From Methanomicrobiaceae archaeon (GTDB taxonomy: Archaea; Halobacteriota; Methanomicrobia; Methanomicrobiales; Methanomicrobiaceae): 54,253 nucleotides of DNA. The translations under genes and the position numbers were made by a program. The stretch lies in assembly GCA_029762625.1 (NCBI GenBank), contig JARVGI010000013.1:1-54253 (forward strand). The letters are read 5' to 3'. The notes under the pieces are model-generated. The model saw only the letters and a program-made list of their open reading frames with translations. It searched no databases and was not told where the DNA came from. Positions within the stretch are counted from its first letter, which is position 1, and every line of letters starts with the position of its first letter. Shown here in pieces: positions 4,571-18,237 of the stretch.

Positions 4571-4580
4571 ATGTTTCTCT

Positions 4581-5549
4581 ATGTCAGATGGTATAAATAT
4601 CTTGAGGCTATCGCTTGCAGCCATCCTCGTGCTCGGAATCTGCCTTGCCGGGTGTACCGGAACGGAAAATCAGGATGGCCAGACGACACCGAACGAAACG
4701 GCTGCACCTCCTTCGGGTGAACAGCTGAGAATCGCCACGACGACAAGCCTGTACGATACCGGACTTCTTGATAGGATCGAGGACACGTATGAAGCGCAGA
4801 CCGGCGTTGATCTTCAGATCTCCTCACAGGGAACGGGAAAAGCGATTGAACTGGCGACACGTTGCGACGTAGATCTCCTCTTCGTGCACTCGCCATCTCA
4901 GGAGCAGGCATTCCTCGATGCAGGCTATGGGACCAACCACCGTTGCATCGCCTACAACTTCTTCCAGATCGTAGGCCCCGAGGACGATCCTGCAGGCATC
5001 GCAGGCATGGACCCGGTAGAGGGATTCAGAGAGCTCTATGAGCAGGGCACGGCCGAGGAGCCTGGTGTGCAGTTCGTCTCCCGCGGCGATGATTCGGGCA
5101 CGCATTCCAAGGAGAAGACCCTCTGGGATATGGCCGGCTATGACTACGAGACCGATGTGCGTGGATCCGGCGAATGGTACGTTGAAGCCGGCAAGGGCAT
5201 GGGTGAAACCCTTGTTATGGCGAGTGAAACGGACGCCTATACACTGACCGATGAGGGAACTTACCTCGCTTTCCAGGGTGATCTAGTGCTCGTCCCCATC
5301 ATTGACCAGGGCGACGCGCTGCTGAACCGCTACAGTGTCATGGCAGTGAATCCAGAGCACTGCCCCGGTGTCAATATCGAGGAGGCCAATAATTTCATCG
5401 ACTGGATGATCTCGGACGAGGCGAAGGATCTGATCAGTTCATTTGGCGTGGAGGATTACGGAAAAGCGCTCTTCACTCCGCTCTACGCGCCGGAGTGCAC
5501 GGCAACCCCGTTCAACTGCTCCTGCGCGGAACCGGTCTCCGAGACGTGA
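4581..5549 (+). CDS. tupA: tungstate ABC transporter substrate-binding lipoprotein, TupA type
   Basis: A 322-residue binding protein. Residues 1-25 are a lipoprotein signal ending in LAGC (Cys25). After a Thr/Pro-rich spacer comes the TupA hallmark IATTTSLYDTG at 51-61, then DLLFVHSP, a SRGDDSGTHSKE loop and GMGETLVMASE, all characteristic of high-affinity tungstate-binding proteins rather than ModA. It would be membrane-anchored, facing the pseudoperiplasm, and deliver oxyanion to TupB. It is the first gene of tupABC, followed 68 bp later by tupB. Tungstate preference over molybdate is inferred from the family; the Cys residues near the C-terminus are unusual extras. Confidence 0.88.
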   Translation: MSDGINILRLSLAAILVLGICLAGCTGTENQDGQTTPNETAAPPSGEQLRIATTTSLYDTGLLDRIEDTYEAQTGVDLQISSQGTGKAIELATRCDVDLLFVHSPSQEQAFLDAGYGTNHRCIAYNFFQIVGPEDDPAGIAGMDPVEGFRELYEQGTAEEPGVQFVSRGDDSGTHSKEKTLWDMAGYDYETDVRGSGEWYVEAGKGMGETLVMASETDAYTLTDEGTYLAFQGDLVLVPIIDQGDALLNRYSVMAVNPEHCPGVNIEEANNFIDWMISDEAKDLISSFGVEDYGKALFTPLYAPECTATPFNCSCAEPVSET

Positions 5550-5590
5550 ATCTGCATACCCTTTAATGATCGGCGAGAAGCGACGGTGAT

Positions 5591-5629
5591 GGAGAGAGGA
5601 CAGTTCCACAGGAACCAATGATTAAAGGC
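5591..5629 (+). promoter_or_regulatory. tupB ribosome-binding region with intervening hairpin
   Basis: A purine-rich GGAGAGAGGA at 5591-5600 is separated from the ATG at 5618 by a small perfect hairpin, GTTCC (5603-5607), ACA loop, GGAAC (5611-5615). Folding would bring the site close to the ATG. A second in-frame ATG lies at 5630. Confidence 0.35.
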
Positions 5630-6334
5630 ATGAATGAGATCTTTCAGGATAATGAGATCATCCAGGGATTCATCCAGGCGATCGAACTCATCATATCTCT
5701 CGATCCAGATGTGATAGAGATCACCCTGCGTTCGCTCTATGTCTCCCTCTCCGCCACCTTTACCGCCTCTCTCATCGCTCTTCCCCTGGGAGCGTACATC
5801 TATTTTAACGAGTTTCGGGGAAAGCGTGCGGTTATCAATCTTCTCCAGACGCTTTATGCACTCCCGACGGTGATCGTCGGTCTAGCCGTTTTCCTGATGC
5901 TCTCCCGTTCCGGGCCTCTCGGGTTTCTGGGGATGCTCTTCACACCACAGGGTATGGTCGTTGCCCAGACGATCCTGATCATTCCCCTCATCACCGGGCT
6001 GACCGTTTCGGCACTGAGCGGCATCGACCGGGAGATGCGCTATACCATCATCTCGCTGGGATCAAGCCAGCTGCAGTCGATCGTCACCATCCTCCGGGAG
6101 GCGAGGTTTGCCATACTGGCGGCGGTGCTTCTCGGGTTCGGCCGGGCCATCGCTGAGGTGGGGACGGTGATGCTGATCGGCGGCAATATACGCGGGTTCA
6201 CGCGTGTGCTGACCACCGCCATCGCCCTTAACACCTCCATGGGGAATTTTTCCTTCTCGATCGCCCTCGGGATTATCCTTTTAAGCGTGGCGCTGGTGGT
6301 CAATATCATCCTCAATGTCGTCCAGGGGCGGTAG
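5618..6334 (+). CDS. tupB: tungstate ABC transporter permease, TupB type
   Basis: A 238-residue integral membrane protein with about five or six hydrophobic segments. It contains the binding-protein-dependent permease loop, seen as SLGSSQLQSIVTILREARFAILAAVLLGFGRAIAEVG in two short blocks: the EAA-like ILREAR and GFGRAIAEVG. It would form a homodimeric channel for tungstate with TupC. The start is ATG 5618, or possibly 5630 (MNEIFQDNE). It ends 3 bp before tupC, so the two are certainly co-transcribed and probably co-translated. Length and topology match TupB of other archaea and bacteria. Confidence 0.88.
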   Translation: MIKGMNEIFQDNEIIQGFIQAIELIISLDPDVIEITLRSLYVSLSATFTASLIALPLGAYIYFNEFRGKRAVINLLQTLYALPTVIVGLAVFLMLSRSGPLGFLGMLFTPQGMVVAQTILIIPLITGLTVSALSGIDREMRYTIISLGSSQLQSIVTILREARFAILAAVLLGFGRAIAEVGTVMLIGGNIRGFTRVLTTAIALNTSMGNFSFSIALGIILLSVALVVNIILNVVQGR

Positions 6335-6337
6335 CAG

Positions 6338-7432
6338 ATGATTGAAGCGGAGAATATCACCAAAGTCTATGGCGAGATGGAAGTCCTCCATGGTGTCGAT
6401 CTCTCGGTAGGAGAGGAAGATATCCTTGGGATCATCGGGCCGAGCGGGTCAGGAAAGAGCACGTTTTTGCGCGTCCTCGACCTGATCGAACCGCCGGATG
6501 CAGGAGAGCTCTCGATCTTCGACGTGGATGTGGTGAAGCATTCGGACCGCGTGGTCGAGTTGCGGCGGCGGATGGGAATGCTCTTCCAGAAACCCATCGT
6601 CTTCAACACATCCGTCCATGAAAACGTCGCGATGGGGTTGAAGTACCGGCACGTGAGCAAGGACGAGATCGACCGGAGCGTGAAGGAGATGCTGGAGGCC
6701 GTCGGCCTTGCCCGGTATATCAGGAGCAATGCGAGAAACCTCTCCGGCGGGGAGCAGCAGCGCGTCTCCCTCGCCCGGGTGCTGGTCACCGAACCCGAGA
6801 TCCTCTTCCTGGACGAACCCACGGCGAACCTGGATCCAAAATCTGCGGAGACCATCGAACGCCTGGTCATGCGCATGAACAGGGACCGGGGGATGACCGT
6901 GGTGATGAACACCCACGATATGCTCCAGGGACAGCGTGTTGCAAAACGCATCGGCGTGATGATCGGGGGTGATATTCTCCAGGTGGGCAGTCCCCGGGAG
7001 ATCTTCTACGCCCCGAACAGTACAAGGATAGCCAATTTCGTTGGCGTCGATAACATCCACGACGGGAAGGTTCTGGGAAGGGAACACGGGATTACCTCGG
7101 TCGAGGTGGCCGGGACTACGCTGTACGTTGGGGAGTCCCCCCCGAAACAGCGTGACCGTGTCAAGGTCATCTTCCGGGGCGAGGATGTGACCATCGGTGT
7201 CGGGGAAACCGCACAGACGAGTGCCCGGAACGTCCTCAACGGCACCATTGCTGAGGTTTCAGATGTTGCCCCCTTTGTATACGTGAAAGTCGACTGCGGG
7301 TTTCCGGTGAGTGCGCTTGTCACCATGCGATCGGCGGAGGAGATGGCGCTTGAAGAGGGCACGCAGGTATGGGCGTCCATCAAAGCAAGTACGTTGCATC
7401 TGATTGCCGAATCGGAAGAAAGCGAAGGGTAA
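6338..7432 (+). CDS. tupC: tungstate ABC transporter ATP-binding protein, TupC type
   Basis: A 364-residue ABC ATPase. Walker A GPSGSGKST is at 34-42, the signature LSGGEQQR at 135-142, and Walker B ILFLDEPT around 155-162. Unlike the short bacterial TupC it carries a C-terminal extension of about 130 residues that ends in a Mop/TOBE-like domain (TSARNVLNGTIAEV through VWASIKASTLHL). Such domains bind oxyanion and can shut the transporter down when the metal is plentiful. That mode of feedback is known for ModBC/ModC and is inferred here. It acts at the cytoplasmic face with TupB. The storage-protein gene starts 46 bp downstream. Confidence 0.88.
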   Translation: MIEAENITKVYGEMEVLHGVDLSVGEEDILGIIGPSGSGKSTFLRVLDLIEPPDAGELSIFDVDVVKHSDRVVELRRRMGMLFQKPIVFNTSVHENVAMGLKYRHVSKDEIDRSVKEMLEAVGLARYIRSNARNLSGGEQQRVSLARVLVTEPEILFLDEPTANLDPKSAETIERLVMRMNRDRGMTVVMNTHDMLQGQRVAKRIGVMIGGDILQVGSPREIFYAPNSTRIANFVGVDNIHDGKVLGREHGITSVEVAGTTLYVGESPPKQRDRVKVIFRGEDVTIGVGETAQTSARNVLNGTIAEVSDVAPFVYVKVDCGFPVSALVTMRSAEEMALEEGTQVWASIKASTLHLIAESEESEG

Positions 7433-7478
7433 ACAATACTCTTTTCATGCATCGCAGTACTGTAGGGAGATGAGGAAC

Positions 7479-8285
7479 ATGACGCACCGGCGGGATCTCG
7501 ATTCAAAACTGAAAGGCGAATCACTGGTACGAAAAGGGCTTCTGAAACGCTACATGGGCCGCGCTCAGCTCAAGATCGCCCCCGACCTCAATATCATTAA
7601 AATCGGGGGGCACGGGATCATCGACTACGGTGCGCCCGTCGTCAAACCGCTTGCCGATGAGATCGGGAATCTTTCGAAGGAATACAAAATGCTGGTGGTG
7701 ACCGGGGGCGGGGTGAGGGTCCGGCATATCCTCGATATCGGCCTCGACCTTGAGATGCCGACCGGAGTTCTCGCCGAGCTCGCCGGAAAGATCAGCGAGC
7801 AAAATGCCATCATGATCGCGGTTCTCCTCTCGAAATACGGGGGTATGCGGATCCATACCGCCGATCTGCTCGACATCCCCATGCTCTTGAGGATGGGACT
7901 GCTTCCGGTCACCCACGGAACGCCCCCCTATGGGCTTTACGAGTATCCCCCCGAGATCGGGATGATTCCTCCCCACCGCACCGACACCGGGGCGTTTCTC
8001 GCCGCAGAGGTACTGGGGGCTCGGTCCTGCATCCTCGTCAAGAATGTGGACGGACTGTATACGGAAAATCCTGAGGAAAATCCTGATGCCGAACTGATCC
8101 GCGATATCACGGCGCAGGAGCTGATCGATATGGATATGGAGGACCTCGTGCTGGAGGACAAGGTGGTGACGCTTCTCCGGGATGCAAAGAACGTCGCCGA
8201 GGTCAGGATCGTCAACGGCCACAAGCGTGGCATGCTTGAGAAAGCGCTGAAGGGGGAAAATCCAGGATCAATTATACGAAAATAA
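7479..8285 (+). CDS. molybdenum/tungsten storage protein-like (MosA/MosB, amino acid kinase fold)
   Basis: A 268-residue amino-acid-kinase/UMP-kinase-fold protein. Blocks recall the Azotobacter molybdenum storage protein: IKIGG at 40-44, TGGGVRVRH near 75-83, GVLAEL, EQNAIM, GTPPYGLY at 147-154, IPPHRTDTG at 163-171, and VKNVDGLYTENP at 187-198. That protein stores polyoxomolybdate or tungstate clusters in an ATP-driven hexamer. I chose ATG 7479 because GGGAGATGAGG precedes it at a good distance; ATG 7470 is an alternative. It follows tupC and sits between two Mo/W importers, which supports metal storage over UMP kinase activity. Only one subunit gene is present, so a homohexamer would be required. 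Confidence 0.75.
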   Translation: MTHRRDLDSKLKGESLVRKGLLKRYMGRAQLKIAPDLNIIKIGGHGIIDYGAPVVKPLADEIGNLSKEYKMLVVTGGGVRVRHILDIGLDLEMPTGVLAELAGKISEQNAIMIAVLLSKYGGMRIHTADLLDIPMLLRMGLLPVTHGTPPYGLYEYPPEIGMIPPHRTDTGAFLAAEVLGARSCILVKNVDGLYTENPEENPDAELIRDITAQELIDMDMEDLVLEDKVVTLLRDAKNVAEVRIVNGHKRGMLEKALKGENPGSIIRK

Positions 8286-8379
8286 TCCTCGTCATCGCTT
8301 TTTGAGAGCAAGATTTCTGAGTATTCATGCCAAGCACGAGAATCTATTTTCCTCAGCCGTACACGATGGGTCTGGCAAT

Positions 8380-8440
8380 ATGCTAACTATGTTTATTTAA
8401 TTAATTTACAAGGTTTAAGTTCAAAAATAAAGTCTTATGT
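8380..8440 (+). promoter_or_regulatory. AT-rich promoter of the wtp operon
   Basis: The gap 8286-8464 contains GCTAACTATGTTTATTTAATTAATTT in two adjacent elements, TTTATTTAATTAA around 8391-8403 and CAAAAATAAAG around 8422-8432. Either could be the TATA box for wtpA. A CTAAC...TTTATT arrangement resembles the other Mo-gene promoters in this window. Confidence 0.4.
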
Positions 8441-8464
8441 AGGTTGGAAGAAATCTATTTTTTC

Positions 8465-9544
8465 ATGAACCGTACGCATGTAGTTCTTGTACTTGCTGCG
8501 ATACTCTGTACCGCTGTATTCTTCTGCGGATGTACCGGCACGGAGACCGAACAGGGCCAGCAGACCCCTGCAGCAACGGCAACGCCGACAGCAACGGCGA
8601 CATCAGTACCGGCGGAAGAGACCACCCTCGTGGTATACCATGCCGGCAGCCTGACCAGTCCCTTCGAGGCGCTGAAGGCGGAATTCGAGGCCGAGTATCC
8701 GCATGTCGATGTGCAGCTCCGCCCCGGCGGCAGCACAGCGATCGTCAAGGAGATCGTTGAGCTCGACAAGCATGCCGACGTCCTCGCCTCGGCAGACTAC
8801 GCGCTCATCCCGAGCCTTATGGTGCCCGATGACGCGGAATGGTATGTCACCTTCGCCAAGAATACCATGGTCCTGGCCTATACGGACCAGAGCCTCTACG
8901 CCGACGAGATAAACGCCGACAACTGGTACGAGATCCTGGCCCGTGACGATGTGCGCTGGGCATTCTCCGACCCGAACCTTGACCCCTGCGGCTACCGGAC
9001 ACCCATGGTCATCCAGCTTGCGGAACTCCACTATGGTGACGACCAGATCTTTGAGAACACCATCGGTGCGAACAGCAACATTACGGTGACTGAGGAGGAT
9101 GGGGTCTATATGATCAACTCCAATAACCCCGAGCCCACCGGGCAACTCTCCATCCGGCCCAAGAGCGTGGAGCTCGTCCAGATGGTGCAGGCCGGCGGTA
9201 TCGATTACGCGTGGGAGTACCGCAGCGTGGCTGTCCAGAACGACCTGAACTTTGTGGAGCTCCCCGAAGCAATCGACCTCTCCTCGATCGAGTATGCCGA
9301 CACCTATGCACTGGTGAAGGAGGACTGTGGTGGCGGCATCAAGACTGCAAGCCCCATCGTCTATGGCGTCACCGTGCCCACGAACGCCGACAACCCTGAA
9401 ATCGGCCTGGCATTTGTGGAAATGCTGATCGGCGAAACAGGACAGACGATCATGGATAACGAAGGACAGCCCCCCATCGTTCCGTCGGGAGGCTTCCTCG
9501 ATGTTCCTGAGGATCTTGGTCCCCTTGTCGAACAACAATCCTAA
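8465..9544 (+). CDS. wtpA: molybdate/tungstate ABC transporter substrate-binding lipoprotein, WtpA type
   Basis: A 359-residue binding protein of the archaeal WtpA class. I prefer the ATG at 8465 to a TTG seven codons upstream, because it directly begins the signal peptide. The lipoprotein Cys is at residue 23 in FFCGC, followed by a long Ala/Thr/Pro linker. Diagnostic stretches are LVVYHAGSLT, RPGGSTAIVKEI, FAKNTMVLAYT and SDPNLDPCGYRTP, the region where WtpA supplies carboxylate ligands for octahedral coordination of tungstate. It is anchored outside the membrane and feeds WtpBC. The following gap carries a U-tract and hairpin, consistent with excess production of the binding protein over the permease. 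Confidence 0.92.
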   Translation: MNRTHVVLVLAAILCTAVFFCGCTGTETEQGQQTPAATATPTATATSVPAEETTLVVYHAGSLTSPFEALKAEFEAEYPHVDVQLRPGGSTAIVKEIVELDKHADVLASADYALIPSLMVPDDAEWYVTFAKNTMVLAYTDQSLYADEINADNWYEILARDDVRWAFSDPNLDPCGYRTPMVIQLAELHYGDDQIFENTIGANSNITVTEEDGVYMINSNNPEPTGQLSIRPKSVELVQMVQAGGIDYAWEYRSVAVQNDLNFVELPEAIDLSSIEYADTYALVKEDCGGGIKTASPIVYGVTVPTNADNPEIGLAFVEMLIGETGQTIMDNEGQPPIVPSGGFLDVPEDLGPLVEQQS

Positions 9545-9604
9545 TTTTTTTCATTTTCCCGTCCAAATACTGGACGATGATACTGGAAACTGGTAGTATC
9601 GTTG
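9545..9604 (+). promoter_or_regulatory. U-tract and hairpin in the wtpA-wtpB gap
   Basis: Directly after the wtpA stop comes a run of seven T (9545-9551), then CGATGATACT (9575-9584) that can pair with AGTATCGTTG (9595-9604), with two G-U pairs and a 10-nt loop. It could be a partial terminator or processing site that lowers wtpBC expression relative to wtpA. Function is inferred. Confidence 0.4.
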
Positions 9605-9651
9605 ATTTCGTAGAAAAACCTTGAAAATCCAGAACATTTCAGTGATATACC

Positions 9652-10464
9652 ATGCGCAGCCGGCACCGTCTTCCTGATCCCTGTATTCTCTCGTTTTCCC
9701 TGATCGGTGGGCTGATCGTTGGGCTGACCGTGCTTGCCCTGCTCAATATGGCGGTCAAAGAGATCTCCGATATCCCGTTTCTCATCGCGACGGCATCGGA
9801 CAGCGGTGTGATCAATGCCATCGCGGTGACTATGGGCGCGGGGCTGAATGCCGTGATCATTCTCCTCATCATCGGCACCCCGCTCGCCTACGTCCTTGCA
9901 CGCACTGATTTCCGGTGGAAGGGCGTGGTGGAGGGTCTTGTGGACATCCCCATCATGCTGCCCCACACCGTCGCCGGCATCCTGGTCTACCTCCTGTTCA
10001 TGCGGAGGGGGCTACTGGGGGCGCCGCTCTATGAAATGGGTTTCTCCTTTGAGGATGCCTATCCGGGCATCGTAATCGCCATGCTCTTTGTATCTGCGCC
10101 ATATTTCGTCAACTCCGTGCGGGAGGGATTCGAAAAAGTCCCCGTCCACCTCGAGAACGTGGCGCGCACCCTCGGGGCAACCCGTTTTCAGACCTTCATG
10201 CGCGTGGTGCTCCCCCTGAGTGTGCGCCATATCTTTAACGGGAGCATCCTCGCCTGGGGGAGGGCTATCGGCGAGTTTGCCGCCATCATCATGATCGCCT
10301 ACTATCCATTCGTGATCTCGACCCTCATCTACTATACCTTCACCACCCGCGGTATCAAGACGAGCAGCACTGTCGCATTCGTGATGATCCTCGCGTGCTT
10401 TGCAGCGTTCATCATCCTGCGCCTGCTCACGCGCTACACAGGGAGGTACGATGATCGAGTTTGA
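9652..10464 (+). CDS. wtpB: molybdate/tungstate ABC transporter permease, WtpB type
   Basis: A 270-residue permease with about six membrane spans. The conserved cytoplasmic coupling loop is visible as ENVARTLGATRFQTFMRVVLP followed by GSILAWGRAIGEFAAI, the G-R-x-I-G-E-F pattern typical of ModB/WtpB proteins. It forms the translocation pore for the oxyanion delivered by WtpA. It begins 107 bp after wtpA, and its stop overlaps the start of wtpC by 14 bp, showing translational coupling to the ATPase. The exact ATG is uncertain because no strong ribosome-binding site precedes it. Confidence 0.9.
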   Translation: MRSRHRLPDPCILSFSLIGGLIVGLTVLALLNMAVKEISDIPFLIATASDSGVINAIAVTMGAGLNAVIILLIIGTPLAYVLARTDFRWKGVVEGLVDIPIMLPHTVAGILVYLLFMRRGLLGAPLYEMGFSFEDAYPGIVIAMLFVSAPYFVNSVREGFEKVPVHLENVARTLGATRFQTFMRVVLPLSVRHIFNGSILAWGRAIGEFAAIIMIAYYPFVISTLIYYTFTTRGIKTSSTVAFVMILACFAAFIILRLLTRYTGRYDDRV

Positions 10465-11548
10465 ACGGGTTTCATTGCGCCTGGGCACCTTTGCCCTCAG
10501 GGAAGTCTCCTTCACCATTCGACAGGGCGACTTCTACTTTATCATTGGGCCGTCGGGTGCGGGAAAAACAGTGCTTCTCGAGGCCATCGCAGGCCTCCAT
10601 GCACCGCAGTCGGGACATGTTCTCCTCCGCGGCGAGGACGTCGCCGGCATTCCGCCTGAGAGGAGACGCATTGCCCTTGTCTACCAGGATTATTCCCTGT
10701 TTCCGCATATGAATGTCGCAAAGAACATTGCGTTCGGTCTGAAGATGCAGAAGGCTGACCGCCGTACCGTTGAAAAACGGGTTGAGGAACTCCTTCAGGC
10801 CTTCGATATCGAGGGGCTCCGTGACCGCAGCCCCCTCACTCTCTCCGGCGGGGAGCAGCAGCGGGTTGCGATCGCCCGCGCCCTTGCGGTGTCACCCGAT
10901 ATCCTCCTCCTCGACGAGCCGTTTTCCGCCCTCGATCCCCTGACCAAAGACAAATTCATCGAGGATCTGCGGGAGGTACACCGGACGCATGATCTTACTA
11001 TCGTCCAGGTGACGCACGCCCGTGATGAGGCCAAGCGCCTTGCCAGCCGGGTGGCGGTGATCATCGAGGGCGTTCTCGCTGCTGAAGGCGGTGTGGAGCA
11101 GATCTTCAATGCACCGGACACCTGCGAGGTGGCGCGATTTGTGGGCATCGAAAATATCCTCCCCGGCACGATCATCTCCGGCAGCGATCACGTGGTGAAA
11201 GTCGATACGGGAGCGGCGACGATTACTGCGGTCTCTGACCTTCACACGGGAGAGGGCGTTGCTGTCTGCTTCCGCGCGGAAGACGTGACCCTCTCGCCAC
11301 CGGGAAGCCCGCGGTCAAGCGCCCGGAATACATTCGAGGGCACCATCACGGGATTCACCCCCATGGGGCCCCTCGTGCGGGTCTCCATCGATTGCGGGTT
11401 CCCCCTCGTCGCCACGGTTCTCAGGGACACCGTGAATGAGATGGGGCTCGCCCCGGGATCGCTGGTCTCTGCTTCGGTCAAAGCGAGCATCATCCACCTG
11501 ACATCGAGATCGCCGGTGCACAGAGACATGTACACTAAATTCAGTTGA
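10451..11548 (+). CDS. wtpC: molybdate/tungstate ABC transporter ATP-binding protein, WtpC type
   Basis: A 365-residue ABC ATPase. The ATG at 10451 follows GGGAGGTACG and overlaps the wtpB end, which is better than an upstream in-frame ATG buried in wtpB. Walker A GPSGAGKTV is at 33-41, the signature LSGGEQQR at 131-138 and Walker B ILLLDEPF at 151-158. A C-terminal Mop/TOBE domain (SSARNTFEGTITGF through VSASVKASIIHL) probably senses cytoplasmic molybdate or tungstate and inhibits uptake, as known for related ModC proteins. The C-terminal domain is strikingly like that of the TupC protein in this window, including a VDCGFP/IDCGFP core. Confidence 0.9.
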   Translation: MIEFERVSLRLGTFALREVSFTIRQGDFYFIIGPSGAGKTVLLEAIAGLHAPQSGHVLLRGEDVAGIPPERRRIALVYQDYSLFPHMNVAKNIAFGLKMQKADRRTVEKRVEELLQAFDIEGLRDRSPLTLSGGEQQRVAIARALAVSPDILLLDEPFSALDPLTKDKFIEDLREVHRTHDLTIVQVTHARDEAKRLASRVAVIIEGVLAAEGGVEQIFNAPDTCEVARFVGIENILPGTIISGSDHVVKVDTGAATITAVSDLHTGEGVAVCFRAEDVTLSPPGSPRSSARNTFEGTITGFTPMGPLVRVSIDCGFPLVATVLRDTVNEMGLAPGSLVSASVKASIIHLTSRSPVHRDMYTKFS

Positions 11549-11611
11549 TTAACTTGATTTATTCATGAAAAATGCAAATGCTTATTTTTGCGCAATAATG
11601 ACTAATTGAAC
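11549..11611 (+). promoter_or_regulatory. promoter of modA
   Basis: The 63-bp gap contains GATTAACTTGATTTATTCATG and GCTTATTTTT at about 11579-11588, a TATA-like element roughly 28 bp before the modA ATG. No ribosome-binding site is seen, so a leaderless message is likely. AAAAAT...ATTTTT half-sites flank the middle of the region. Confidence 0.45.
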
Positions 11612-12424
11612 ATGAAGAGGATAACTTTCATTGTCTTCATTGGATTGGTGGTATGTGCAGCGCTCTTTGCATGCGGATGCACCGAATCACAGCCCGCAGA
11701 AACCGGGACGCCCGAAGCAGAGGCCGGGGGATCGCTTCTGGTCTACTGCGGTGCGGGGATGCGGGAGCCCATGGATGAGATTGCCGACCTGTTTGAAGAG
11801 CAGGAAGGGATCACCATCCAGTACACCTATGGCGGTTCCGCACAGCTCTTGAGCCAGATCGAGCTCTACCAGACCGGCGATGCCTACATGCCCGGGGCGA
11901 CATCGTACATCGATTCCGCCATTGCAAAAGGATTCGTGGACAAGACCGAGAAGGTGGTCTACCATGTGATGGCTATGGTTGTACCCAAGGGCAACCCGGC
12001 AGGCATCCAGACGCTGGAGGATCTCACAAAGCCCGGTGTCCGCGTGGCTATCGGTGAGCCCACCGGCCCTGCCGTCGGACAAGCGGCAAAGAAGATGCTC
12101 GAAAAAGACGGCATGTGGGAGGCAGTCGAGGCGAACTGCGTGGTGAAGTCGGGCACGGTCAACGAGCTCTTAGTCTACGTCTCGATGAACCAGGCGGACG
12201 CCGCCATCATATGGGAGGATCTCTACAACGAGGAGGCCATGGATCTGATTGACATCCCCCTGGAAGAGGGATTCGTCAAAGTCGTCCCCATCGGAACGCT
12301 CACTTTCTCTGAAAACCCCGAAAATGCCGAGAAATTCATACGATTCGTGGCATCGGATGAAGGGCTGGCGATCTTCGAGAAGCACGGGTTCACCACGTAC
12401 CCTGATGAAAAGTATGGTATGTGA
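11612..12424 (+). CDS. modA: molybdate ABC transporter substrate-binding lipoprotein, ModA type
   Basis: A 270-residue type 2 periplasmic binding protein. Residues 1-23 form a lipoprotein signal ending in FACGC. LLVYCGAGMREPMDEIADLF and YGGSAQLLSQIE match the ModA oxyanion-binding loops, where backbone and Ser/Thr side chains hold tetrahedral molybdate; later IGEPTGPAVGQAAKKML and NQADAAIIWEDL complete the fold. It is shorter than WtpA and lacks its DPCGYRTP element, so it is a separate ligand-binding class. It has its own promoter and is separated from trmO-modBC by 336 bp, although it is presumably the binding protein for ModBC. A T-rich tract follows the gene. Confidence 0.85.
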   Translation: MKRITFIVFIGLVVCAALFACGCTESQPAETGTPEAEAGGSLLVYCGAGMREPMDEIADLFEEQEGITIQYTYGGSAQLLSQIELYQTGDAYMPGATSYIDSAIAKGFVDKTEKVVYHVMAMVVPKGNPAGIQTLEDLTKPGVRVAIGEPTGPAVGQAAKKMLEKDGMWEAVEANCVVKSGTVNELLVYVSMNQADAAIIWEDLYNEEAMDLIDIPLEEGFVKVVPIGTLTFSENPENAEKFIRFVASDEGLAIFEKHGFTTYPDEKYGM

Positions 12425-12760
12425 GGGCCTTGTGGTTTACAAATTCTCTCTCCTTTTTTCCCGTGGGTTCCGGCGGATTTGTTAACCGATCGCGATTTAT
12501 TTAACGGCCATATTGCATGAGAAAATAAACACTGTTAATTACTATTGAATATCAAGGTGTGGTTATGAAGTATGCATCTGCAGGCGGTTGTACGACGCCG
12601 GGCGTCTCTCCTCTCGTTGTATATGCGTCCGGAGCAATGCATGTGGCATCGCGGACCGTATCCCCGGGCAGGAATCCCCGACCGCCGGTTTCTCCTCATG
12701 AGGCAGTCCATAAACCGGAATCATAAACCAGATAAACGCAACATTCAGGAGCGGCTACCA
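12425..12760 (+). promoter_or_regulatory. terminator-like tract, promoter and long structured leader before trmO-modBC
   Basis: This 336-bp gap holds a T-run at 12453-12458, a GTTAA/TTAAC inverted pair (12481-12485 and 12501-12505), TATA-like AT-rich sequence up to about 12540, and then about 220 bp before the trmo ATG. The leader contains nested inverted repeats: CCGGTTT (12685-12691) with AAACCGG (12712-12718), enclosing the palindrome CCTCATGAGG (12694-12703). A GGCG...CGCC pair lies at about 12583-12599. The ribosome-binding site is AGGAG at 12747-12751. No known riboswitch class was recognised. Confidence 0.45.
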
Positions 12761-13306
12761 ATGAAAGACCAGAAAAAAGGAAACTCCCCCGAAATGGGGG
12801 AAGGGATCGTGTACAGTCCTATCGGGGTCATCCACTCCGAATATACCGAACAGGAGGAGACCCCCATCCAGGGAATCTTCAACCCTTCCGTGGGTGAAGT
12901 GGAGGTATTCCCCGAGTTTGCTGCGGGACTCGCCGATATTGAGTCGTTCTCGCACCTCTACCTCCTGTACCACTTCCATCGGGCGACGGGGGCGAATCTC
13001 ATCCAGAAGCCGTTCCTCGACGGGGAGAAGGAGCGGGGAATCTTTGCCATCCGCCACTTCAACCGTCCGAACCCGATCGGACTTTCCATCGTGGAGCTTG
13101 TTGAGGTAAAGGGCAACATCCTGGTCATACGCGGCGTCGATATCCTCGACGGCACCCCGCTGCTGGACATCAAGCCCTACGTGCGCCAGTTTGATCACCG
13201 CGACGAGGTGAAGAGCGGCTGGGTGGACAACCAGCATACCGACGATATCGCCGCATGGAACGCCTCGCCGCGGGGCCTGCGCGACCGGGGGAGGACAAAC
13301 CTGTGA
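12761..13306 (+). CDS. TrmO/TsaA-like (UPF0066) family protein
   Basis: A 181-residue protein of the TsaA/UPF0066 family, whose characterised member TrmO methylates N6 of t6A37 in tRNA-Thr with S-adenosylmethionine. Visible motifs are SPIGVIHSEYTE at the start, FSHLYLLYHFHRA, FAIRHFNRPNPIGLS and a late LLDIKPYVRQFD. The ATG at 12761 has AGGAG nine bases upstream; an in-frame extension to 12572 is non-coding leader. The modB start overlaps its stop by 4 bp (GTGA), so it is translationally coupled to the molybdate permease. In this setting a role linked to molybdenum rather than tRNA is possible, and the substrate is not shown by sequence. Confidence 0.8.
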   Translation: MKDQKKGNSPEMGEGIVYSPIGVIHSEYTEQEETPIQGIFNPSVGEVEVFPEFAAGLADIESFSHLYLLYHFHRATGANLIQKPFLDGEKERGIFAIRHFNRPNPIGLSIVELVEVKGNILVIRGVDILDGTPLLDIKPYVRQFDHRDEVKSGWVDNQHTDDIAAWNASPRGLRDRGRTNL

Positions 13307-14097
13307 ACGTGTTCGGCCATTCGCCCCTGAAAGTTGTCAGCATCGGTGCGGGGATGCTCCTCACCGCATTCATCGCGGTGCTGCTCTTTCTCATCGTGAG
13401 CCACCCCTCCCCGGAGAATCTCATTGCATCCATGCTTTCGACCGAGATCCAGTTTGCGATCACGCTGAGCCTGATCACCTCGGTGGTATCGACCGTGCTG
13501 TGCATCATCATCGCCGTCCCGGCGGCATACGGCCTCGCGCGCTATGAGTTTCCGGGCAAGAGTGTGGTCAATACCGCCCTTGACATGCCGCTCGCCCTCC
13601 CGCCTCTTGTCGCGGGGGTGGGGCTCCTGCTCTTCTTCGGGACAAGCCCGTTTGGGAAAGGGCTCGCAGAGGCGGGTCTCGTGTTCGTGTTCACCCCGCT
13701 GGGCATCATCGCCGCGCAGTTCTTCGTGAACATGCCGTTCATGATCCGCATCATGCGCTCAACCTTCGAGAGCATCAGTCCCCGATACGAGTACGTGGCA
13801 AAGACGCTCGGCTGCACGGATCTCCAGGCGGTGTGGCGGGTCACGCTGCCCATGGCGGCGAGCGGCTTTTTCGCGGGAGCGGTGATCACGTGGGCAAAAG
13901 GGATCGGTGAGTTCGGCGCCGCGCTGCTCCTTGCCGGGGCGACGCGCATGGTGACGGAGACACTGCCCATCTCCCTCTTCCTGAACATGTCGTGCGGCAA
14001 CCTGAACATGGCGATTTCCGCAGCCACCATCCTGATCGCCATCTCGATCTGTTCCCTGTACGTCTTCGAACGCTACGGGGGGAGTGCCCGCTTCTAG
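13303..14097 (+). CDS. modB: molybdate ABC transporter permease, ModB type
   Basis: A 264-residue permease with about five or six hydrophobic spans. I chose the GTG at 13303 because GGGGGAGGA lies 8 bases upstream and it gives a 4-bp overlap with the preceding stop; upstream codons lie inside trmo-like coding sequence. The N-terminal domain ATQ-like segment is not obvious, but the coupling region AKTLGCTDLQAVWRVTLPMA and GAVITWAKGIGEFGAAL is clear and typical of ModB/CysU proteins. It forms the molybdate pore in the cytoplasmic membrane, working with ModC 11 bp downstream and presumably ModA upstream. Confidence 0.88.
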   Translation: MNVFGHSPLKVVSIGAGMLLTAFIAVLLFLIVSHPSPENLIASMLSTEIQFAITLSLITSVVSTVLCIIIAVPAAYGLARYEFPGKSVVNTALDMPLALPPLVAGVGLLLFFGTSPFGKGLAEAGLVFVFTPLGIIAAQFFVNMPFMIRIMRSTFESISPRYEYVAKTLGCTDLQAVWRVTLPMAASGFFAGAVITWAKGIGEFGAALLLAGATRMVTETLPISLFLNMSCGNLNMAISAATILIAISICSLYVFERYGGSARF

Positions 14098-14108
14098 GAG
14101 GCCCGTGT

Positions 14109-15155
14109 ATGCTGCGTATCGAACATGTATCCAAGGACATGGGAGAGTTTCTGCTCAAGGACGTCTCGCTGCAAGTGTCGCAGGGCGAGTATGTGGTCAT
14201 TATCGGCCCCACCGGCGCAGGAAAGACCATCCTCGTGGAAACTGTCGCCGGCATCTACCCGCCGGATGCGGGCAGAGTATTGCTCAATGGGAGGGATATC
14301 ACCCACGAGGAGCCGAGGAACCGCAACATCAGCATGGTGTACCAGGACTACATGCTCTTTCCCCACCTCTCGGTGCATGACAACATTGCATTCGGGCTCC
14401 GGAACCGGCAACTGGAAAAACCCGAGATCGAACGGCGGGTCGAGGAGAGCGCGGACCTTCTCGGCATATCCCATCTCCTCCACCGCCGCCCCGATACCCT
14501 CTCGGGCGGTGAGCAGCAGCGCGCCGCCATCGCCCGCGCCATTGTGATGGAACCCTCGGTGCTCCTCCTCGACGAACCGCTCAGTGCGCTCGACGGACGG
14601 ACCCGGGAGGCGCTCAGGAAAGAACTCCGGCGCCTGCACGATACGATGGATATCACCGTCCTCCACATCACCCACAATTTCGAGGAGGTGTTCTCGCTGG
14701 CAGACCGGGTGGCGGTCATGAACCGCGGGGAGATCGTCCAGGACGGCGCACCCGACGAGGTCTTTCGAAAACCGAACTGCGAATTCATCGCTGATTTCGT
14801 GGGAGTGGAAAACCTCTTTAAGGGGATGTGCAGACTGGACAACGGTAATGCGATCATCGAGACCGGGGATCTCAGCCTGGTCTCGACGACCTGCACCCGG
14901 GAGGGTGAGGTGTTCGTCTCCGTCCGGCCCGAAGATATCATGGTATCCCGGACAAAGCCGGAGATCAGCGCACAGAATGTGTTTGCAGGAACGGTCACCG
15001 AGAGTGTGAATAACGGGATTGTGATGCGGGCGGTGGTGGATGCGGGCATCCCCTTCGTCGTCACCCTCACTCGCCAGGCATACCAGGACCTCGATATCAA
15101 GAAGGGGGATTCGATCTATCTCCTTTTCAAAGCAGCGTCGGTGCATGTATTCTAG
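14109..15155 (+). CDS. modC: molybdate ABC transporter ATP-binding protein, ModC type
   Basis: A 348-residue ABC ATPase starting at ATG 14109 behind a strong AGGAGG. Walker A GPTGAGKTI is at 33-41, the Q-loop in VYQDYMLF, the signature LSGGEQQR near residue 130 and Walker B VLLLDEPL near 150. A C-terminal Mop/TOBE domain (SAQNVFAGTVTESV to FKAASVHVF) is expected to bind molybdate and trans-inhibit transport. This makes it the third oxyanion ATPase in the block with such a sensor domain. It couples ATP hydrolysis to ModB. The MOT1-type permease follows 45 bp later and is probably part of the same transcript. Confidence 0.88.
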   Translation: MLRIEHVSKDMGEFLLKDVSLQVSQGEYVVIIGPTGAGKTILVETVAGIYPPDAGRVLLNGRDITHEEPRNRNISMVYQDYMLFPHLSVHDNIAFGLRNRQLEKPEIERRVEESADLLGISHLLHRRPDTLSGGEQQRAAIARAIVMEPSVLLLDEPLSALDGRTREALRKELRRLHDTMDITVLHITHNFEEVFSLADRVAVMNRGEIVQDGAPDEVFRKPNCEFIADFVGVENLFKGMCRLDNGNAIIETGDLSLVSTTCTREGEVFVSVRPEDIMVSRTKPEISAQNVFAGTVTESVNNGIVMRAVVDAGIPFVVTLTRQAYQDLDIKKGDSIYLLFKAASVHVF

Positions 15156-15200
15156 ACGAAGCGCACTGCATGGTTCCTCCATGCGTGGGGAGGCTTCCCG

Positions 15201-16310
15201 GTGACGGAAACTCGCTCGCTACGCCTGCATCCGGAAGAAATCGCCGGCTCGGTGGGTAATTTCGGCACCGTTTTGCCTATCGTGTTCGGGGTCGCTGCCG
15301 TAGCGGACATCAACCTCGGCACCGTCCTCCTCTTCTTCGCCCTGTGGTACGCGGTGATCGGGATCGTCTACGGCATCCCCATACCCATAGAACCCCTGAA
15401 GGTGGTGGGGGCGGTGGTTATCGCCGAAGGTCTCTCTTCGGGCGATATCATGGCGGCGGGGATGCTCACCGGCCTGATTTTCCTGTTCCTTGGGCTCATC
15501 AAAGGGATGCGCTACATCAGGGAGAAGATCCCCACCAGCGTGATCCGGGGCATCCAGCTCGGGCTCGCGCTGGTGCTGGTCAACACCTCCCTGCGATTCA
15601 TCAGCCAGGATCCCATATTCGCCTTTGCGGCGATCGGCCTCATTGCCATCTTCTTTATTGCCAGCAGCAGGTCGTCAATTCCGGATATATCTGCGCTCAT
15701 TGTCATAATCGCCGGGATCGGGTTTGGCATTGCGGGCTATGGCATACCGCCGCTGCAGCTGCCCCCTGTTCCCGGCATCATCATTCCGGATATGCAGAAC
15801 ATCATCACCGCCCTGGTGCGTCTGGTGCCGCCGCAGTTTCCCCTGACCCTCACCAACGCAATTCTTGCCACCTCGGTGCTCGCCCACGATCTCTACAAAC
15901 GCGAAATCGAGCCGGATCGGCTTTCCATCACCATCGGCCTCATGAATATCATCTCTGTGCCCTTCGGGGCGTTTCCCATGTGCCATGGGGCGGGAGGGCT
16001 TGCCGCCCACTACCGCTTCGGGGGAAGAACCGCCGTATCCAATATCATCGGCGGGGGTATTCTGCTCGCGTTTGCGCTCTTCTTCGCGCATCCCGATACC
16101 CTCACCATTCTCCCTGCGGGCATGTTCGGTGCGCTGCTGGTGTTCGTGGGCATCGAGCTGGGAAAACACGGTATCAAAACCGATGACTACCTTGTATCGG
16201 GAAGCATGGCCGTAGTGGCGCTTATCGGCGGGATGACGGTCGCCTTCGTATTCGGTCTTCTTTTCGCCGCGGTCCGGCGCCGCATGCAGTTTAGGCCAGG
16301 TTCGGGCTAA
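15201..16310 (+). CDS. MOT1-type molybdate (or sulfate) permease
   Basis: A 369-residue, highly hydrophobic protein with about ten membrane spans. The family hallmark FPMCHGAGGLAAHYRFGGRT is present (split here as FPMCHGAGG and AHYRFGGRT), together with an N-terminal NFGTVLP and IPIEPLK, as in plant and algal MOT1 molybdate transporters of the SulP-related group. The start is GTG at 15201, behind GGGGAGG. It is the last gene of trmo-modBC and gives a secondary, non-ABC route for molybdate. Sulfate transport cannot be excluded from sequence, but the neighbourhood favours molybdate. Coding runs to TAA at 16308-16310, followed by an A-rich stretch. Confidence 0.85.
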   Translation: MTETRSLRLHPEEIAGSVGNFGTVLPIVFGVAAVADINLGTVLLFFALWYAVIGIVYGIPIPIEPLKVVGAVVIAEGLSSGDIMAAGMLTGLIFLFLGLIKGMRYIREKIPTSVIRGIQLGLALVLVNTSLRFISQDPIFAFAAIGLIAIFFIASSRSSIPDISALIVIIAGIGFGIAGYGIPPLQLPPVPGIIIPDMQNIITALVRLVPPQFPLTLTNAILATSVLAHDLYKREIEPDRLSITIGLMNIISVPFGAFPMCHGAGGLAAHYRFGGRTAVSNIIGGGILLAFALFFAHPDTLTILPAGMFGALLVFVGIELGKHGIKTDDYLVSGSMAVVALIGGMTVAFVFGLLFAAVRRRMQFRPGSG

Positions 16311-17043: not shown

Positions 17044-17277
17044 TCAGGTTTTGGTCTCCAGCATCCCGCCGCGCTCTTCTTCGGGCATAACCTCGAGGTA
17101 GACGATCTCGGCATCCATGTCCTTTGCGATCTGTTCAAGTTCGGTCTTCCTAAAATGAACTGCTTCAAACTTGGAGTGCTTTGATTCCTCTCCTACGACG
17201 GCAACAACCCGAAAGCGCGGCTGATGCACCCCGGTACCGACTTTCTGTCGCTCCCGCACATAGATCTTGACGCTCAT
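17044..17277 (-). CDS. conserved small methanogen protein, unknown function
   Basis: A 77-residue soluble protein starting MSVKIYVRERQKV. I favour the ATG at 17277 because GAGGATGTG precedes it and because this N-terminus looks domain-like; an in-frame ATG at 17349 would add 24 basic residues. The body alternates strands and one helix (FRKTELEQIAKDMDAEIVYLEV), suggesting a small alpha/beta fold. I recall similar proteins in other Methanomicrobiales but know of no assigned function. It is monocistronic, facing away from the TiaS-like gene, with a U-tract terminator directly downstream. Confidence 0.6.
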   Translation of the reverse strand: MSVKIYVRERQKVGTGVHQPRFRVVAVVGEESKHSKFEAVHFRKTELEQIAKDMDAEIVYLEVMPEEERGGMLETKT

Positions 17278-17440
17278 GGCTTTCACATCCTCGGACCGTA
17301 CCCTCGCATCCTCGGAAGGACGATCTCTGAATCGATACCTGTTATTCATCCGTAATAATATGATCCCTTTGTGGGGTAAACGGGGACTGGATTGGCGGAT
17401 GTTAATTAAATGTCATGTACTTTCTCTCAATTGATGTCCC

Positions 17441-17538: not shown

Positions 17539-18237
17539 ATGACGCTCTACCTTTCTATTGACGATACCGACGATCGAAATTCTCCGGGAACAGGAAACCT
17601 TGCGCGGAGAATTGCAGATCGCATCGCGACCGATTACCGGGTGCTCGGCGTGACCCGGCACCAGCTCTTCAATCATCCCGATATTCCCATGACATCGCAT
17701 AACAGCTGTGCCGTCATCCATGTGGAAAACGGAAGTCCCGGGGTTATCGAGGACATATACTCACGTGCACGGGAAATGGTGCTGGAGAATTGCGCACCCG
17801 GAAGTAATCCGGGAATTGCACTCGCCGCAGGCGACCGGATTTCTCCGGAAATTACCGCCTTCGGACTCTCGGCGAAGGTGTCTGTCCTCACCATCGCCGA
17901 AGCCCGCGGCCTTGCCGGAACAGCGGGGATTATTGCAGAAGGACTCGGAGAGACGGGAGGAGGCCTCATCGGATCGATCGCCGGGATAGGCCTTGCGGTC
18001 CTGCAAAACGACGGGCGGTTTGTACAGAAAGGAGATCTTCGGAACATACGGGGGAGGCAGCCGGTATCCACCCTGCTTTGCGCCGGGATCGACAGGGTGG
18101 TCACCCTCGATGGGATCCCGCTCACGCAGGGTCTTGTCGCCCTCCAGAAGTTCCCGCGCCCGGCTTGTATCAACGGCGAAGCGGTTCTCTTTGTCGAGCA
18201 ATCCGGAGAGGAATTCATCGACCTCAAGATCGGGTGA
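17539..18237 (+). CDS. TiaS-related protein lacking the C-terminal nucleic-acid-binding domains
   Basis: A 232-residue protein. Its N-terminus LSIDDTDDRNSPGTGNLA resembles the nucleotide-binding start (GIDDTDSxxG) of TiaS, the archaeal enzyme that attaches agmatine to C34 of tRNA-Ile2. TiaS itself is about twice this length and carries C-terminal OB and zinc-ribbon domains, which are missing here. The remaining sequence (SHNSCAVIHVENG, AFGLSAKVSVLTI, GLGETGGGLIGSIAGIGLA) fits a standalone kinase-like domain. Function is therefore open: tRNA modification is possible but not demonstrated. The gene appears to be transcribed alone, with a TATA box at 17441. Confidence 0.6.
   Translation: MTLYLSIDDTDDRNSPGTGNLARRIADRIATDYRVLGVTRHQLFNHPDIPMTSHNSCAVIHVENGSPGVIEDIYSRAREMVLENCAPGSNPGIALAAGDRISPEITAFGLSAKVSVLTIAEARGLAGTAGIIAEGLGETGGGLIGSIAGIGLAVLQNDGRFVQKGDLRNIRGRQPVSTLLCAGIDRVVTLDGIPLTQGLVALQKFPRPACINGEAVLFVEQSGEEFIDLKIG

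Follow-up and report, generated by a model that had tools for sequence, protein, structure and literature searches.

A putative molybdate/tungstate import and storage island in a Methanomicrobiaceae archaeon, with a single-chain MoSto-group protein and its small companion

Genes of the island

The window analysed here is the whole 54,253-nucleotide stretch of contig JARVGI010000013.1 (assembly GCA_029762625.1) from a Methanomicrobiaceae archaeon. The original prediction placed TupABC, WtpABC and ModABC importers, a MOT1-type permease and a storage gene at 4581-16310, and family and PDB matches located all of them on the forward strand. Their positions were roughly as given, although these were starts of open reading frames and several genes are likely to begin slightly downstream. 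A TupA-type binding protein with a lipoprotein-like N-terminus (4581..5549; PF12849) is followed by a TupB-type permease (5618..6334; NF038017, 256.6 bits, cut-off 100), an ATPase in the TupC position (6338..7432; PF00005, E 3.7e-31) and the storage gene (7470..8285). Next come WtpA (8465..9544), a WtpB-type permease (9652..10464) and an ATPase in the WtpC position (10451..11548), then ModA (11612..12424), a ModB-type permease (13303..14097), an ATPase in the ModC position (14109..15155) and the MOT1-type permease (15201..16310; PF16983 MFS_MOT1, E 3.7e-52, 175.8 bits, cut-off 30). Each of the three ATPases has the expected C-terminal TOBE domain, with PF03459 above its cut-off (E 4.5e-12, 1.1e-11 and 1.7e-9 in gene order). 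Two genes had been overlooked. One, of TrmO/TsaA type (about 12761..13306, forward strand), separates modA from modB; the other is a small gene on the reverse strand (17044..17277), which proved to be the companion of the storage gene. Read from an internal ATG, the latter would encode 77 amino acids, and its open frame also offers a start at 17349.

The three binding proteins do belong to three different classes, but the labels of the importers hold only in part. WtpA exceeds both of its NCBIfam cut-offs (NF003196 and TIGR03730; 406.7 against 355 and 373.2 against 242.75), with MA_0280 as closest PDB match (3k6u, E 2.3e-100), and ModA passes TIGR01256 (100.6 bits, cut-off 62.5), its PDB matches being molybdate-binding proteins. 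The other subunit and ATPase names are soft. TupA (NF041772, 216.3 against 400), TupB (NF041773, 172.5 against 320) and WtpB (NF040839, 255.8 against 340) fall below the cut-offs of the models that bear their names, so that the first is TupA-like but uncertified by that model; ModB is under TIGR02141 (165.2 against 182.6) and above TIGR01581 (239.1 against 210.3). The ATPase in the ModC position passes the WtpC model NF040840 (458.5, cut-off 440) and fails TIGR02142 (224.1, cut-off 285.05), while the one in the WtpC position fails the WtpC model (368.1). The best PDB matches of TupA are 5my5 (E 3.1e-58) and 3lr1, the latter titled as tungstate-binding. The available text of PMC5517513 gives a TTTS motif, Arg118, Thr124 and Asp170 as the oxyanion residues of Desulfovibrio TupA, which 5my5, read from its sequence, appears to represent; in an alignment to 5my5 our TupA keeps the motif and equivalents of all three residues. 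The importers resemble known TupABC, WtpABC and ModABC systems in that every subunit is recognisable, but differ in their mixed ATPase labels, in the presence of four importer types beside a storage gene and in the TrmO-type gene within modABC. The MOT1-type gene resembles SulP-related MOT1 molybdate permeases, PF16983 being matched in two stretches, but is archaeal, whereas the table seen in PMC6147048 enters MOT1 for eukaryotes only.

The gene inside the mod operon is, by family, of TrmO type (TIGR00104, 135.6 bits, cut-off 93.25; PF01980), with tRNA methylation as its putative activity, and is one of four TrmO paralogues in the genome. It differs from other TrmO (TsaA) methyltransferases in its fixed spot within the mod operon across the order: among relatives, each of the 15 stretches that had ModB contained it, and in 14 of them its direct neighbours were ModA and ModB on either side. 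The genome also carries a second ModABC on another contig (C27), and a second TupA and a stand-alone TOBE frame on a third (C21); the block is not the sole Mo/W supply. A ModE-type regulator, of which none had been seen in the window, was not detected in the genome (99.81% complete) either, TIGR00637 having no match at E 0.001; as a control, this model matched 7 of 14 named genomes, and exceeded its cut-off in 2. Clustering of importers around the storage gene, for which a gene-order comparison in other Methanomicrobiales had been proposed, recurs: among 60 analyst-chosen stretches of at most 20 kb around the storage gene, from relatives in the same order, 3 had four importer types, 13 had three, 25 had two, 12 had one and 7 had none.

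A third MoSto group and its small companion

The storage protein, originally called MosA/B-like, does belong to the MoSto family, but to a third group that lacks the alpha-subunit ligands and has a small companion. It scored 193 bits against MoSto beta (2ogx_B) and 44 bits against UMP kinase, with a profile score of 252 bits, and is 36-42% identical to Azospirillum MoSto subunits. In an unrooted tree of 39 rows, single-chain (32), alpha (4) and beta (3) sequences each split off at 100/98 or better; the single-chain group (100/99) is present in methanogens, Asgard archaea and Geobacter relatives. As judged from sequence, the protein is a member of this group and not of the Azotobacter heteromer. 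No alpha-beta pair was found: the gene is alone, and any further MoSto match in the genome is weaker than E 3e-8. The available text of PMC4504029 describes Glu129 and His156 of MosAB as covalent anchors of Mo8; here they are replaced by His129 and Gly155, in an alignment through Azospirillum alpha subunits with an inferred one-residue numbering offset. Because these anchors are missing, the cluster chemistry should differ from that of MosAB. The ATP-site Lys44 is invariant (20/20) and aligns with the position altered in 6ris (beta Lys42, from the PDB title). Azotobacter vinelandii MosA/MosB (2OGX, 4F6T) share with our protein the amino-acid-kinase fold, the ATP-site lysine and a Mo/W gene setting, but are distinguished from it by the single gene, the tree group, the replaced alpha anchors, the small companion and the lack of a nitrogenase link in the order. 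The protein is probably a homohexamer. Tub of Eubacterium limosum, which the abstract of PMC11980592 calls a tungsten storage protein, is comparable by that description only.

A UMP-kinase-like enzyme that stores no metal would fit the shared fold superfamily and the missing alpha anchors, and an archaeal UMP kinase model of NCBIfam does match our protein (66.7 bits, cut-off 158). Such an enzyme is nonetheless improbable, as the MoSto score is far higher, the storage gene lies amid Mo/W genes in most stretches, and a Foldseek search with the model of a Geobacter relative returned MoSto for all of its top 15 matches (E 4e-26 to 1e-23) before UMP kinase at 1e-14. Identity as UMP kinase was rejected on these scores.

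The small protein had no convincing Pfam or NCBIfam match, and it accompanies the single-chain MoSto almost without exception. Among 199 Methanomicrobiales genomes, 131 had both genes, one had MoSto only (G170), two had the small gene only and 65 had neither. Of 141 genomes of the Geobacter order, 29 had both, none had single MoSto without the small gene, and two had the small gene only, one at a contig edge and one as a fragment with a stop; the sole genome with an alpha-beta pair (G321) lacked it. These genome counts are phylogenetically non-independent, but presence and absence of both genes switch together within at least 11 of 38 genera, from tables read by eye. All seven stretches with two MoSto genes had two small genes, and two others had two small genes for a single MoSto. 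Among the 60 stretches, the small gene was divergent from and adjacent to MoSto in 49, co-directional in 3, elsewhere in 5 and absent from 3, in two of which it lay farther off on the same contig; in bacteria it is downstream of MoSto. It was absent from the three Azospirillum plasmid stretches examined (ten records matched), and the small protein from the window had no match when used as query against plasmids. One weak Rhizobium match (E 4e-3), with neither MoSto in the stretch nor an annotated gene at the site, was rejected as spurious. This co-occurrence and linkage show that the small protein is a dedicated companion of single-chain MoSto in two domains of life. Five of its eight invariant residues are basic. 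Its AlphaFold model is poor (pLDDT 71.9), with no Foldseek match at E 0.001 and a best VIA Z of 4.1. A fused model reading through from MoSto into the small protein gave no sign of docking in its scores (pTM 0.64), the small part being no better than alone. Neither archaeal MoSto nor the small protein was found in the titles and abstract openings listed from a literature mostly outside subscription journals, and the small protein is apparently undescribed.

A palindrome at the small gene

Between most head-to-head small and MoSto genes lies an 18-bp palindrome, GTATACCARYTGGTATAC. Of 56 intergenic regions, 45 contained it when up to 5 mismatches were allowed, against 0.55 expected from base shuffles. 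With a matrix trained on these small-MoSto intergenic regions, sites of at least 10 bits were detected upstream of 51/66 small genes, 49/67 MoSto genes, 14/45 tupA and 6/44 tupB, and upstream of none of 18 wtpA, 18 modA and 43 MOT1 genes. Sites of at least 10 bits upstream of tupA occurred in 11 of 15 genomes positive for the small gene versus 2 of 24 negative ones (p = 5e-5), the genomes and the threshold having been picked after first looks. No strong palindrome is present in the window: there is a weak match at the start of tupA (4579..4596; 11.3 of 28.8 bits), and a related pattern has one match at 3 mismatches (0.15 expected), not significant alone.

These sites raise the possibility, to which we give rather less than even weight, that the small protein is an autoregulatory DNA-binding repressor that recognises the palindrome and governs both storage and the uptake of tungstate in organisms lacking ModE, which appears to be missing from our genome. 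The palindrome accompanies the small gene in divergent, co-directional (L074-L076) and separated (L053, L054, L071 and L072) layouts, and was present in 3/3 Asgard loci. When a 16-base pattern was matched allowing no more than 1 mismatch, two genomes (G085 and G064) had no site other than the one at the small gene; a third (G054) has two further 1-mismatch sites, and 2-mismatch matches are no commoner than those of a reversed-pattern control. The enrichment at tupA and the basic invariant residues would also fit a repressor. However, our genome and a congener (G000 and G111) retain the small gene with no palindrome at it, and in bacteria, where the small gene lies downstream of MoSto, the palindrome was not evident in 18 upstream regions scanned (best 10.0 bits, once). 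At the four separated loci, sites of at least 14 bits occur only at the small gene, which would seemingly leave self-regulation alone, and no known DNA-binding fold was found, though the model is poor. The target of the small protein may be MoSto, the operator or the two together, and we lean slightly towards a protein-level partner.

Import, storage and use of molybdenum or tungsten

It is, on balance, probable that the island serves import and storage of Mo/W oxyanions together with a companion small protein. From their families, the three ABC importers and the MOT1-type permease would bring in molybdate or tungstate, and the TOBE domains may close the importers at high levels of oxyanion in the cytoplasm. 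The single-chain MoSto relative, given its family and its ATP-site lysine, would pack the oxyanion using ATP. In most archaeal relatives, the position of the palindrome suggests that a single operator may serve the small gene together with MoSto, and in some cases tup, as a storage and tungstate regulon. That the palindrome in relatives is shared by the storage cassette and some genes of the tungstate-type tup importer, but was found at none of the wtp, mod and MOT1 genes scanned, is also the sole pointer to the layering of Mo versus W that had been suggested for the stacked importers. Alternatively, the block might be no more than a gathering of unrelated oxyanion importers that share neither storage nor regulatory logic, the small gene being a hitchhiker. 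This would fit the very variable order and content of the stretches, 7 of 60 having no importer by the analyst's criteria. We consider it very unlikely, since the linkage of MoSto and the small gene survives rearrangements and spans domains of life, and the two genes vary jointly in presence within genera.

The stored metal would most likely feed pterin enzymes such as formylmethanofuran and formate dehydrogenase and not nitrogenase. A nitrogenase purpose found no support: MoSto and NifD are not associated in the order (both in 19 genomes, NifD only in 15, MoSto only in 113, neither in 52; p = 0.17), and our genome had no NifD match at E 1e-60. The dehydrogenase role put forward originally gains indirect support from FwdB- or FdhA-like genes in 9 of 60 MoSto stretches, both being present in four (L064, L065, L076 and L084), but no such gene lies within the window.

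In summary, we tentatively propose a second kind of Mo/W storage system common to Bacteria and Archaea, in which a single-chain MoSto of distinct cluster chemistry would depend on an obligate small basic protein. This protein may seat or release the metal-oxide cluster, or may sense the oxyanion and, in place of ModE, use a private palindromic operator to repress both storage and the uptake of tungstate; in methanogens the store may be chiefly one for tungsten. The third MoSto group occurs in about two thirds (132/199) of the genomes of the order searched and in Geobacter relatives, and is tied to the small protein and, in archaea, also to a defined palindrome. Candidates for the store and for its partner or regulator, together with a DNA site, make the buffering of Mo/W for CO2 reduction in methanogens testable, and in an organism with no detectable ModE.

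Importer genes around the storage gene

The genes of the original prediction at 4581-16310, namely TupABC, WtpABC, ModABC, a MOT1-type permease and a MosA/B-like storage protein, are borne out by matches to profile libraries and to proteins of solved structure. On the forward strand, the order is tupA, tupB, a tupC-like ATPase, the storage gene (7470..8285, +), wtpA, wtpB, a wtpC-like ATPase, modA, a trmO-like gene, modB, a modC-like ATPase and a MOT1-like permease; each importer is an ordinary representative of a known family. TOBE domains, as predicted, are found in all three ATPases of the block, and the five TOBE matches of the whole genome comprise these three, the ATPase of a second ModABC and a stand-alone frame. 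The lack of ModE, noted originally for the window, extends to the entire genome, which has no TIGR00637 match. The second ModABC operon (contig G000:C27; 4830-7617 of the fetched stretch L180) has 44-57% identity to that of the block. The stand-alone TOBE frame (G000:C21:375933-376121, an 83-aa open frame) perhaps encodes an oxyanion-binding protein of the Mop type; ~14 kb from it lies a second TupA (C21:389801-390610).

The importers of relatives were counted in 60 stretches of ≤20 kb around the storage gene, all from genomes other than that of the window and chosen by us for contig size and spread, by mapping the window's proteins with our own criteria. All four importer types were present in 3 stretches, three in 13, two in 25, one in 12 and none in 7. 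Importer clustering thus recurs across the order, with the full set of four being uncommon. The TrmO-type gene, which was overlooked in the original prediction, accompanies ModB in 15/15 ModB-bearing stretches and lies directly between ModA and ModB in 14. There are four TrmO-family genes in the window's genome, with no TrmO match between ModA and ModB of the second ModABC. Any tie of the TrmO-type gene to molybdate transport is a matter of guesswork: it might affect translation in a metal-dependent way or methylate a different substrate.

A single-chain MoSto-group protein

Sequence scores place the storage protein far nearer to the molybdenum storage protein (MoSto) than to UMP kinase, and a structure search with the model of a Geobacter relative agrees. 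The closest named records that carry the storage gene are a Euryarchaeota MAG (93%) and Methanoculleus sp. FWC-SCC1 (80%), names from which we take the order to be Methanomicrobiales. An unrooted tree was built from 39 rows. The 32 single-chain sequences, which come from methanogens, Asgard archaea and bacteria, share one side of a 100/99 branch, and the MoSto subunits form separate groups, alpha with 4 rows and beta with 3. In Azotobacter MoSto alpha, Glu129 and His156 anchor an octamolybdate (PMC4504029). By alignment, the window protein has His129 and Gly155 in their place. The ATP-site lysine is unchanged in 20/20 sequences. His140, which we take to be the holder of the W3 cluster in MoSto, aligns with Leu139. 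From family placement and the kept lysine, the protein may work like MoSto, and it is no MosAB heteromer; the label "MosA/B-like" stands as regards MoSto over UMP kinase and gives way to a single-chain third group with the alpha anchors replaced. Canonical MoSto pairs were seen on Azospirillum plasmids (L175-L177); in two of these, L176 and L177, the annotation of the beta-like subunit is uridine kinase or uridine monophosphate kinase.

The small companion protein and a shared palindrome

A 77-residue protein is encoded at 17044-17277 (-). Neither Pfam nor NCBIfam yields a family for it, and searches with 44 relatives gave no more than isolated matches of single members (best E 0.02). Among 199 genomes of the order, which share ancestry, 132 had MoSto (scored at >100 bits) and 133 the small protein; 131 had both and 65 neither, the exceptions being G170 (MoSto only) and G055 and G154 (small protein only). 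At least 11 of 38 genera hold both states, with MoSto and the small gene changing together (tables read by eye). The coupling is also seen in the order of Geobacter argillaceus, where, among 141 genomes likewise related by descent, 29 have single-chain MoSto, 31 the small protein and 29 both; of the two surplus matches, one is at a contig edge and one is a fragment with a stop, and the small protein is absent from G321, the only one there whose MoSto is an alpha-beta pair. Twelve whole genomes, selected from loci already known to show it, carry the small protein once each, except for one with two copies and, likewise, two MoSto loci. In 18 of 22 bacterial loci, the small gene follows MoSto on the same strand at a distance of ~100 bp; in 1 it lies downstream on the opposite strand, and 3 show none within the stretch (at least one of these stretches ends too soon). 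R8, R10, K12, P20, H41, R43, E46 and A56 are invariant in 44 sequences. A predicted beta-beta-alpha-beta layout (pLDDT 72) gave no match in a fold search, and structural models do not help with the role.

Spacers between MoSto and the small gene in bacteria (L107, L109, L114, L123, L130) have a promoter-like TTGACA...TATAAT at some loci, along with a CCCTCC...GGGAGG hairpin immediately ahead of an AAGGAGG ribosome site; TACCGC...GCGGTA takes its place in L116 and L122, possibly as a covarying stem. A 232-aa protein at 17539-18237 (+) has a weak likeness to TiaS and methanogenesis marker 11 (29-37 bits, under cut-offs), and many of the 60 stretches contain its relatives, frequently adjoining MoSto or the small gene.

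The intergenic regions that separate the small gene from MoSto have in common the palindrome GTATACCARYTGGTATAC, found at ≤5 mismatches in 45/56 against 0.55 per base-shuffle set. Using a matrix built from these 45 regions, upstream matches of ≥10 bits were obtained for the small gene (51/66), MoSto (49/67), TupA (14/45) and TupB (6/44), and for none of WtpA, WtpB, WtpC, ModA (18 each), ModB (15), ModC (20), MOT1 (43), TupC (49) or TrmO (22). HisD (3/17), MBL (2/23) and w17539 (7/23) also gave matches; these seem often to adjoin tup or the small gene. Where MoSto is located elsewhere, the palindrome is still at the small gene in 4/5 stretches. Most tupA genes scanned are without it; a site of ≥10 bits upstream of tupA was present in 11/15 genomes with a positive small gene versus 2/24 without (p = 5e-5, genomes and threshold chosen by us after first looks) and, within genus g21, in 3/3 examined versus 0/8 (the third positive being stretch L076). 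Such a distribution could be that of a repressor and its operator. However, the window's genome retains the small gene with no palindrome, its one weak match being at the start of tupA, which counts against a pure repressor. In the bacterial loci the palindrome is not evident.

Besides 3/3 Asgard loci, two MAGs under the labels Methanocellales and Thermoplasmata, possibly misbinned, have the palindrome. Genus g11 (L044-L050) has a tandem pair of MoSto genes, each accompanied by a small gene of its own; of the two intergenic regions in every one of the 7 stretches, one has the palindrome at ≤4 mismatches and the other at ≥6. Three Asgard MAGs (L117, L126, L164) carry cassette and palindrome. 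Their MoSto proteins group together (100/99) and, at moderate support (94/86), with the g11 methanogen copies, which suggests transfer between phyla.

Proposed storage and metal use

Gene content, tree group, the coupling of the two genes and the palindrome are observations. We infer, for transport specificity, that the importers would carry oxyanion into the cell; for storage, that single-chain MoSto would pack it using ATP; and, for a partner or regulator role, that the small protein would be required for packing or would control it. The stored metal might then supply pterin enzymes. FwdB- or FdhA-like genes are present in 9/60 stretches, with both kinds in four (assignments in L065 checked with Pfam), and the window's genome has no NifD match (TIGR01862, E 1e-60). 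As to metal preference, a hint of tungsten comes from relatives, in which the palindrome connects storage with some importers of the tungstate type and with no other importer scanned. Overall, the observation made originally stands, with additions, and its interpretation is partly supported. What deserves a bench test is the storage cassette together with its small companion, a novel form of a known kind.
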